Shown: positions 5,412-8,620 of the stretch, one piece after another | How positions within the stretch are numbered: position 1 is the stretch's first letter | Layout: every line of letters begins with the position of its first letter | Source of the DNA: Aeromicrobium sp. | GTDB taxonomy: Bacteria; Actinomycetota; Coriobacteriia; Anaerosomatales; Anaerosomataceae | Length of the DNA stretch: 64,000 nt | Direction: 5' to 3' | Assembly: GCA_015351705.1 (NCBI GenBank) | Contig: JADIIM010000048.1 | Coordinates: 1 to 64,000, forward strand | The notes under the pieces: generated by a model | What the model was told of the DNA's origin: nothing | Seen by the model: the letters and a program-made list of their open reading frames with translations, nothing else | The model's database searches: none | Translations under genes and position numbers: made by a program

Positions 5412-7811
5412 TCACCGGGTCCGGAGCAGCCGTAACCCGTTCGCGATGACAATGAGCGCCACGCCGGTGTCCGCGAAGACCGCCATCCACAGCGTGGCAT
5501 GACCGGTGACCGCGAGCGCAAGCACGAGTGCCTTCACGCCGAGCGAGAGCGCGATATTCTGGCGGATGTTGGTCATGGTGGCGCGCCCGAGCGCGAAGAA
5601 CCCCGGAAGCGCGGCCAGGTCGTCGCGCATGAGCGCGACGTCGGCGGTCTCGATGGCCGTGTCGCTGCCGGCAGCGCCCATCGCGATGCCGATGTCGGCC
5701 GCTGCGAGCGCGGGCGCATCGTTGATGCCGTCGCCCACCATCGCGACAACCCCGTGCTGCTCCCTCAGTTCGGCGACGGCGACCGTCTTCCCGTCCGGGA
5801 GCAGGCGGGCCCGGTACTCCGGCACGCCCGCGGCGGCGGCCACCCGGGCGGCGGCGTGCTCGTTGTCACCGGTGAGCATCACGAGGTGCTCGATCCCGCT
5901 CGCTCGCAGCGCGCCGGTGGTCGAACCCGCGTCCGGCCTGATCGTGTCGGCAAGGCCGATCAGAGCGAGCAGGGCGGCGTCGGGTCCCGTGCGCGCGAGC
6001 GCGAGCACGGTGAGCCCCGCGTCCTCAAGAGCGGCGGCGCGCTCGAGCGCCTCCCCGGTGGCGGATGCGGCCGCCGATGCCGCGGCTGCCGCTGTCCGCT
6101 CGGTCACGAAGGCGACGTTGCCGACCACGAGAGGGACGCCGTCAGCCACGCCCTCCACGCCCCGACCGGGCGTCTCGACGAGCGCATCGACGGTGATGTC
6201 CGCCGCCCCCTCGGCGCCCGCGGCCGCCACGGCGCGCGCGAGCGGGTGCGTCGAGTGCGCCTCGAGCGCGGCGGCGAGCCACAACGCTTCCTCGGCCGTC
6301 TGCTCCGCGAGCGGCACGACCTCGGCCACGGCAGGCCGCCCCTCGGTCAGCGTGCCGGTCTTGTCGAAGACCACGGCGTGCGTCTGCCCGGCGAGCTCCA
6401 GAAAGGCGCCTCCTTTGACGAGCACGCCGTCGCGCGTGGCACGCGTGATCGCCGAGACGATGGCCACCGGCGTGGACACCACGAGCGCGCACGGACAGGA
6501 GACCACCAGCAGCACGAGGGCGCGGTATATCCAGTCAGGCAGTGCCTCGAAACCCGGCCACGGCGCACCGGCCTGACCGAGTGCGGGTGCACCGAACGCG
6601 AGCGCGAGCGCGCCCGCGATCACGACGGGCGTGTACCAGCGGCTGAACCGGTCCACGAAGCGCTGCACCGGCGCGCGGGACGCCTGCGCCGCCTCGACGA
6701 GATCGACGATGCGCGCAAGCGTCGTCTCACCGGCGCCTGCGGTCGTCCGCACCTCCACGCGACCAGTCGTGTTGAGCGAGCCCGCGAAGACGCGGTCCCC
6801 CTCGGCGCGGTCGGCGGGGACCGACTCCCCGGTGATCGGGGACTCGTCGAACGCCGAGGCGCCCACAGTGATCACGCCATCGAGCGGGACGCGCTCGCCG
6901 GGCCGGACGACGATCACCTCGCCGAGGGAGACCTCCTCGGGAGCGACCTCACGCTCCGCGCCTGCGCGCAGCACGCGTGCCCGCTCGGGCGCGAGCGCCA
7001 TGAGCTCCCGGATGGACCGTCGCGTGCGGGCCACAGAACGTGATTCGAGCACCCCGCCGAGCGCGAACAGAAAGATGACGGTGGCGCCTTCGCCCCATTC
7101 ACCGATCGCCGCGGCACCTGAGACCGCGATCGTCATGAGCACGTTCATGTCGAGGGTGCGCGCGGCAAGCGAGACCGCCGCACGTCGCCACGTGATGGCG
7201 CCTCCGGCCATGATCGCAAGGCCGAACGCCACCGTGGCCGCAAGCTCCGCGCCGAGCCAGCCGAGCAACCAGCCGATCGCGATAAGAGCGCCCGAAGCGG
7301 CCACCGTCACCTCGGCACGATGGCGGACCCACCACGTGGGCTCGGCGATGAGTACATCGTCTGCGACAAGCGGCTCCACGCCGTGCCCCGCCCCGGCGAC
7401 AGCGGCGATGGCCTGTGCGCGCGGGTCAGCACCCGTGTCATATTCGAGAAGCATCACGCCTGTGGCGAAGTTGACATCGGCGAAGAGCACTCCGGGAATC
7501 CTGCTGACGGACTTGGTCACGGTCCGCGCACAGTCAGGTCAATCGAGTCCCGTCAGGCGGTAGGCCACATGACCGACGCGCCCGGTCTCCTCGAGGACGA
7601 GGCGCCTGACGAGCGGTTCCAGGTCGCTCTCGGCAAGCAGGCGGGTGTCGAGCCCGACGCTCAGCACACCCTCCTCGAGATCGCAGGACACGGTGGTCAC
7701 ACCGTCTACCGTGCGGGCACGCTCACAGACACGCTCGGCGCACCCGGCGCAGTAGTACTCGCCGGGCAGCAGCGACCGCAGGTCGAAAGCGCGTTCGAGC
7801 GTGCGCGACAC
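5412..7811 (-). CDS. Candidate selenocysteine-containing Zn/Cd/Pb P1B-type ATPase (UGA read-through at 7539-7541)
   Basis: Exports soft divalent metals across the cytoplasmic membrane at the cost of ATP. The frame from GTG 7811 to the stop at 5412 is continuous except for one TGA at 7541-7539; read through, it gives 799 residues. N-terminal HMA domain 1 carries YYCAGCAERV; HMA domain 2 begins TGLD-[TGA]-PDCARTV, so TGA replaces the first Cys of the CxxC metal site (position 91). HMA 2 then continues normally (PGVLFADVNFATG). The body (5412-7520) has TGES, CPC in a membrane helix, DKTGTLT, the THPLA His-Pro motif, GDGINDAP, and the terminal Lys/Asp pair of the Zn/Cd/Pb class (GVKALVL, VFADTG). 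A SECIS-like hairpin follows the TGA. If not read through, the ATPase would have to restart at GTG 7520, inside a broken HMA domain and with no clear ribosome site. It lies directly behind an ABC exporter. Confidence 0.8.
7504..7537 (-). promoter_or_regulatory. SECIS-like hairpin directly after the in-frame TGA
   Basis: Counting from the first base after TGA on the minus strand, bases 2-6 (CUGAC) pair with 31-35 (GUCAG) and 14-17 (GGAC) with 27-30 (GUCC); alternatively 12-17 pairs with 27-32 as a 6-bp stem. The apical loop is bases 18-26, CGUGACCAA, with G as its second base. Bacterial SECIS elements known to bind SelB lie at this distance from UGA and have a G in the first two loop positions. 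Found by eye, no folding energy computed. Confidence 0.6.
7539..7811 (-). CDS. N-terminal HMA segment ending at the in-frame TGA (90-residue product if terminated)
   Basis: This is the part upstream of the TGA, listed apart because conventional termination would make it a separate 90-residue protein. It contains one heavy-metal-associated domain (YYCAGCAERV, then DGVTTVSCDLEEGVLSVGLD) and the first strand of a second one (VAYRLTGLD). A domain cut after its first strand is not a natural C-terminus, which argues that the segment belongs to the ATPase that continues in the same frame. Start chosen at GTG 7811, eleven bases past the stop of the ABC permease gene; the ribosome site (GGGCAG) is weak. 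Confidence 0.65.
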   Translation of the reverse strand: MSRTLERAFDLRSLLPGEYYCAGCAERVCERARTVDGVTTVSCDLEEGVLSVGLDTRLLAESDLEPLVRRLVLEETGRVGHVAYRLTGLD

Positions 7812-7822
7812 CGGCTGCCCGA

Positions 7823-8620
7823 TCAGGCCACGTCGCGGCGGCGGAACACGAGCACCGCTGCGACGAGCGAGGCGGCGCCGACGATCCCGTAGATCCACCA
7901 TGCCTCGGGCGCCACGGCATCACCGTTGATGATCTTCCCCGGCTGCCAGTAGGTGACGAGGTTGACCGGGTCGAGCACCTCGGCCGCCTCGGACACGTTG
8001 GAGACGAGGTCGGCGACCCACAGCACCCCCATCACACCAGCCGCGATGCCACCTGCACGCCCGCCGTCGCGGAACATCGCGCTCAGCAGCATGGCGATGC
8101 CGCCGACCGCCAGCATGAACAACACCCCGAACGCCGAGAGCGTCCAGAACGTCTGCGCGGAGAGCTCGATGTCGTACGTGGGCCCGAAGATGGCGATCGG
8201 CGCGAAGGAGGCGGCAGCGAGAAGCACGATGTATCCCACCAGCGCCACGACACGCGTCACCGCAAGGCGGACGCGTGAGACGGGCTGGGCGAGCGTGAAC
8301 TCCATCGTTCCATCGGCGATCCCACCGGCGAACGCCTTGCTCGCGAAGATGATGACCGCCGACGCGACGATGAGCATCCACATGAGCCCGAGGTACTCGG
8401 TCTGGAAGTACCCGCCGAGGGTGGCGAAGTCCACCTCGGTCCCGCCGAACAGTGCGAGCATCTCGGGGGGCATGTTGTCGATCAGCTCGGCGTACTGACC
8501 ACCGCCGATCTGCGGATAGAACCACGTCATCAGCCACGAGTACGCCACGAGGCTGACCGAGTACCACATGATCGAGGTGCGGCGAGCGCGGAGCGTGGCG
8601 CGCAGGAGTGTCCAGCTCAT
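7823..8620 (-). CDS. ABC-2 type transporter permease
   Basis: 265 residues with about six hydrophobic segments: one near the N-terminus (MWYSVSLVAYSWLMTWFY), then around 105-125, 150-170, 180-205 and a final one before the basic C-terminus VFRRRDVA. The pattern (cytoplasmic N-terminus, extracytoplasmic loop after helix 1, 'AGGIADGTMEFTLAQPVSR' coupling segment) matches ABC-2/NatB-type permeases. Its ATG abuts the stop of the ATPase gene upstream and its stop is eleven bases before the HMA/P-type ATPase gene, so all three are probably one operon. Substrate unknown; drug, lipid or ion export are all possible. Confidence 0.85.
   Translation of the reverse strand: MSWTLLRATLRARRTSIMWYSVSLVAYSWLMTWFYPQIGGGQYAELIDNMPPEMLALFGGTEVDFATLGGYFQTEYLGLMWMLIVASAVIIFASKAFAGGIADGTMEFTLAQPVSRVRLAVTRVVALVGYIVLLAAASFAPIAIFGPTYDIELSAQTFWTLSAFGVLFMLAVGGIAMLLSAMFRDGGRAGGIAAGVMGVLWVADLVSNVSEAAEVLDPVNLVTYWQPGKIINGDAVAPEAWWIYGIVGAASLVAAVLVFRRRDVA

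Follow-up and report, generated by a model that had tools for sequence, protein, structure and literature searches.

Known selenocysteine ATPases and bacterial SECIS elements

Bacterial SECIS elements are SelB-binding stem-loops that lie within the coding sequence just downstream of the UGA, as in the SelB-dependent element of E. coli fdhF. The published bSECIS constraints are an apical loop of 3-9 nt with a G as its first or second base, an upper stem of 4-16 bp, a spacing of 16-37 nt, and a minimum free energy (MFE) of -7.5 kcal/mol or lower (PMC13188914, Fig. 2 legend).

Selenocysteine (Sec)-containing ZntA-like ATPases are an already catalogued selenoprotein family (COG2217, UxxC). Members are P1B heavy-metal ATPases in which Sec takes the first position of the CxxC motif of an HMA domain. 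Earlier listings of the family rest on few sequences, one of them in a GOS survey table. A 2026 review places the family among predicted metal-resistance transporters, whose precise roles need further study. Sec as a probable metal ligand of a transporter is unusual, the majority of selenoproteins being regarded as redox proteins. Shigella ZntA (PDB 4umv/4umw), the best solved relative of the protein described here, is as far as known an ordinary Cys-type transporter and not a selenoprotein.

The window, i.e., the whole 64,000-nucleotide stretch of DNA that was analyzed, encodes a ZntA-like ATPase with an in-frame UGA followed by a hairpin. This hairpin is very probably a bacterial SECIS element that directs Sec insertion at the UGA, as judged from sequence comparison. 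Because Sec-containing UxxC ATPases of the ZntA type are already catalogued, the gene is an added, well-supported member of a known family. In contrast to the earlier listings, 37 distinct genes are found across the whole order to which this genome belongs, the proteins have two HMA-like domains, and the SECIS comparison is full. New here are the family's size within this order, the complete contrast in the hairpin between Sec and Cys sequences, and the switching of the stem between registers. A literature search found no paper on the selenoproteins of this order.

The ATPase gene and its protein

The selenoprotein gene occupies positions 5412-7811 on the minus strand. If the UGA is taken as a stop, the gene is split into two open reading frames at 7539-7901 and 5412-7520. 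The frame from approximately 7811 to 5412 has a single interruption, the TGA at 7541-7539, and is open on both sides. Translated with U at the TGA, it gives one protein with the Pfam domains HMA, E1-E2_ATPase, and Hydrolase (HAD). This protein matches TIGR01525 with 573.8 bits (cut-off 346.25), and the Cd-type subfamily model TIGR01512 is also matched. The structural match to Shigella ZntA (PDB 4umv) covers residues 94-811. Together, these Pfam, TIGRFAM, and structure matches identify a ZntA-like P1B heavy-metal ATPase. The likeness to the catalogued Sec ATPases lies in the P1B class, the UxxC motif, and the NCBIfam model TIGR01525, and was drawn by family and motif.

The start is placed at the GTG at 7811-7809 because homology to the closest relatives begins there, and the UGA is therefore codon 91. 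The UGA (7539-7541, minus strand) is very probably read as Sec91; it is TGA in 36 other orthologues and TGC or TGT in the Cys homologues. Sec91 opens the metal-binding motif in the second HMA domain (GLDUPDC; 7386-7559, minus strand; Pfam HMA, residues 97-154) and aligns with the first Cys of CxxC. In a 19-sequence alignment, GLDCPDC is invariant. A first HMA-like domain, with the motif YCAGCAERVC, lies at 7811-7620 on the minus strand. Pfam does not detect this domain, which looks like a diverged copy of HMA that most relatives also have.

Selenocysteine-decoding genes

The genome itself (G000) is a 2.07 Mb assembly of 60 contigs and is 96.75% complete. It encodes selD (C29:2181-3110; L070, L011), and this selD has its own in-frame UGA (TKAGUAAKWGPGDL); 16 nt downstream of that codon begins the loop, CGGGC, of a hairpin. 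The mechanical open reading frame call for selD is a shortened 312-amino-acid frame from an internal ATG. The genes selA and selB and the tRNA-Sec gene were not found in the 60 contigs. Candidate selB fragments on C40 and C23 are EF-Tu-like by their tRNA context and score under the cut-off, and the RF01852 matches examined in this genome are tRNA-Ser and other tRNAs.

The machinery is common among relatives. Each of selA and selB is present in 33 of the 41 genomes searched, and the two are usually adjacent. A tRNA-Sec gene with the anticodon TCA was found in five of the seven relatives checked, and it lies near the sel genes in G012, G013, and G005. Genome G013 has two tRNA-Sec genes by covariance score (C13:12178-12270 and C8:63627-63719). 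In G012, a stretch of about 10 kb contains selA, selB, and tRNA-Sec, and one of 18 kb also takes in selD.

The absence of these genes bears on the best-surviving alternative, in which the UGA is a true stop, the frame comprises either two genes or one gene in decay in a strain whose Sec decoding has been lost, and the hairpin is a relic of an ancestral SECIS element. The three missing genes would fit this account, as would the orthologues of their G012 neighbors, which are missing from G000 too. A similar lack is seen in G025, a close relative (98% complete) where selA, selB, and tRNA-Sec were not found and the ATPase keeps both UGA and hairpin; this absence may be a gap or a recent loss. Against a true stop, G000 retains a UGA-containing selD with a hairpin of its own, and the ATPase frame is long and open on either side of the UGA. 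Moreover, in G029, where selA, selB, and tRNA-Sec were likewise not found, the ATPase has Cys.

An assembly gap is likely because selA, selB, and tRNA-Sec occur in most relatives. Since the three genes lie so close together in G012, their absence from a genome of 60 contigs is explained by a single gap in assembly or binning. On contig C29 of G000, selD is approximately 2 kb away from the left end. A gap at that contig edge is unproved because the genes that flank selABC in G012 have no orthologue found in G000. A gap is nevertheless the simplest reading, with true recent loss as the alternative, and we consider a true stop at the ATPase UGA improbable.

The hairpin downstream of the UGA

On the minus strand, the UGA at 7541-7539 is followed by CCTGACTGTGCGCGGACCGTGACCAAGTCCGTCAG. 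The 5' arm of the hairpin, GCGGAC (7522-7527, minus strand), lies inside the codons GCG-CGG-ACC (Ala-Arg-Thr). The apical loop, CGUGACCAA, is 9 nt long (7513-7521, minus strand), starts 17 nt past the UGA, and has G at its second position. The 3' arm, GUCCGU (7507-7512, minus strand), is made up of the last base of a Lys codon, the Ser codon TCC, and part of the next Val codon.

The first-pass annotation had described a hairpin directly after the UGA, within coding sequence, with a 9-base loop starting C-G, a distance of 17 bases, and G as the second loop base. All of these hold in the sequence, and the loop begins CGUG. For the stem, two readings had been offered, and both are present in the sequence with GGAC/GUCC common to them. 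The 6-bp alternative, GCGGAC/GUCCGU around CGUGACCAA (7527-7507, minus strand), is the conserved core. The lower stem CUGAC/GUCAG is rejected; it is specific to this sequence, and the corresponding 3' bases of relatives are mostly GTACG.

Folding of the 48 nt from the UGA gives an MFE of -16.1 kcal/mol; the bare 6-bp hairpin alone gives -6.9 kcal/mol. A fold more stable than that of shuffled sequences had also been expected, and this was not borne out. The 76-nt region has z = +0.38, and 127 of 200 shuffles fold equally well or better. The fold of the single sequence is thus not above chance. Little weight can be put on stability in this case: SECIS hairpins of bacteria are short, and the coding sequence that holds the present one is rich in GC. 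When the codons were recoded synonymously using the codon usage of the window, 2.3-2.5% of recodings kept an equally good stem at the same place. An Rfam scan of the window gave no SECIS family, and the sole match was a tRNA-Leu.

The suggested match to the bacterial SECIS rules is upheld. Stem length, a small loop with an early G, and spacing all fall in the published range (PMC13188914). The window has a 9-nt loop and a 6-bp stem, and all 37 orthologues have loops of 5 or 9 nt on stems of 5-7 bp. The second loop position is G in 36 of the 37; the exception is L027, which reads CUUG with U at that position. The spacing of 17 nt and the MFE over the 48 nt from the UGA also conform, and conservation of the hairpin is confined to sequences with UGA at this codon. 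In contrast to the bacterial model, the stem is found in two registers on different branches of this gene family. SelB binding, a property of the known elements, is predicted here.

Stem-loops can promote readthrough in other systems. The UGA might accordingly be read as another amino acid, such as Trp or Cys, through near-cognate readthrough, with the hairpin acting as a generic stimulator. We give this account very little credence: the aligned residue is Cys in homologues that lack the UGA, and the relatives encode Sec machinery. The agreement of the hairpin with the bSECIS rules likewise argues for a SECIS element (PMC13188914).

Comparison of UGA and Cys homologues

Of 69 genomes searched within the same order, 66 gave matches, and the best matches mostly contain exactly one internal TGA. 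Outside the order, in searches of the class and the phylum, nearly all matches are without an internal stop. The contig search used a pattern back-translated from the Cys form and for that reason gave Cys forms only, which served as controls. When the sequences were sorted by the codon that aligns with the UGA, 37 distinct ones had UGA, and 103 distinct ones had TGC or TGT with the DCPDC motif. The stem was then scored at a fixed place, with the loop at +17 and a loop length of 5 or 9, by counting contiguous pairs.

All 37 UGA sequences have 5-7 contiguous pairs, whereas all 103 Cys sequences have 0-4. Among the 13 closest Cys homologues the maximum is four pairs, and none reaches 5 bp. Conservation of the stem in UGA-containing homologues, another expectation of the first-pass annotation, is thereby confirmed (37/37 Sec vs. 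0/103 Cys, counted over sequences that are not independent of each other). The Sec/Cys state requires four changes on a 50-sequence tree, with three of them forced by well-supported branches, and every Cys row is without the hairpin. Because the state has changed at least three to four times, the contrast reflects more than a single split. The proof of a SECIS element is therefore comparative: the single fold is unremarkable, but the structure is found with UGA and not with Cys.

Two stem registers

The stem is found in two registers. In 25 of the 37 sequences the loop is 9 nt, and the stem is built from CGG-ACC (Arg-Thr) and TCC (Ser). These three codons are invariant in 25/25, although the genes of the window use CGG for 22% of Arg codons, ACC for 41% of Thr codons, and TCC for 25% of Ser codons. 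The remaining 12 sequences have a 5-nt loop, and their stem is formed by CGC-RCC and a downstream GCG or GTG codon. The loop starts with CGU at an equal distance from the UGA in both registers, except in L027 (CUU).

Covariation, also raised in the first-pass annotation, is found in part. In the 5-nt-loop class, pair 19-27 is GC in seven of the 12 sequences and AU, a compensatory double change, in the other five. The outer pair varies among GU, AU, and UA, with U-A in L044. The covariation score of this class is 0.301 vs. 0.167 ± 0.036 for shuffled alignments, and 3 of 500 shuffles score as high; all slid registers give about 0.10 or less. In the 9-nt-loop class covariation is uninformative because the stem varies at one outer pair only.

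That the hairpin has no function and arises merely from GC-rich codons of the conserved peptide ARTVxKS is hardly credible. For this account, P is only about 0.02 in the single-sequence test, and shuffles of the 76-nt region fold as well as the region itself. Against it, Cys homologues such as L074 (ARTVEKSARQ) and L174 (ARTVDKSV) encode an identical or near-identical peptide with other synonymous codons and no hairpin, the division between 37/37 and 0/103 is complete, and two codon solutions lead to the same loop position.

The register label requires three changes on the Sec tree, and two of these changes are forced. One further reading, whose chances we judge to be about even, is that Sec in this order is a metal ligand (a selenolate in the UxxC of a Zn/Cd/Hg-class exporter) and not a redox catalyst, and that the SECIS element shapes the coding sequence. 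The stem would have switched between the 9-nt and 5-nt registers at least two to three times, and one protein position (Lys or Ala) and the Arg codon (CGG or CGC) would have changed in step.

Proposed mechanism and significance

In the mRNA, a stem of 5-6 bp would form, with a small G-containing loop at a distance of 17 nt past the UGA. SelB loaded with Sec-tRNA-Sec would bind the loop and deliver selenocysteine as the ribosome meets the UGA, which would be decoded as Sec91 instead of stop. Both SelB binding and actual Sec insertion are steps that we infer from the established SelB pathway. The predicted product is a full-length P1B-type export ATPase of the ZntA-like Zn/Cd/Pb/Hg class. Its sequence class suggests export of Zn, Cd, Pb, or Hg. 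The second cytosolic HMA domain would have UxxC in place of CxxC and would offer one selenolate and one thiolate to the metal. Sec would act as a softer and stronger metal ligand, and the selenolate would favor soft metals.

In this actinobacterial lineage, for which most knowledge comes from metagenomes, a codon that looks like a stop divides a genuine selenoprotein gene. A thinly documented family of Sec heavy-metal ATPases becomes a well-supported one with dozens of members. The matched Sec and Cys orthologues make the SECIS rules of the lineage, and the reason for its use of Sec, directly testable.

A second UGA-containing ATPase family

Genomes of the same order also contain, at 13 loci (L162-L171 and L184-L186), a separate second family of HMA ATPases that has a UGA (GITULDCAAKFEKNV). 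Its hairpin has the loop GAGAA, starting 21 nt past the UGA. The stem is GUUC/GAAC followed by GGCC/GGCC or GGCG/CGCC, a G-C/C-G exchange. Because of this hairpin after its UGA, the second family probably likewise contains Sec and has a SECIS element of its own.
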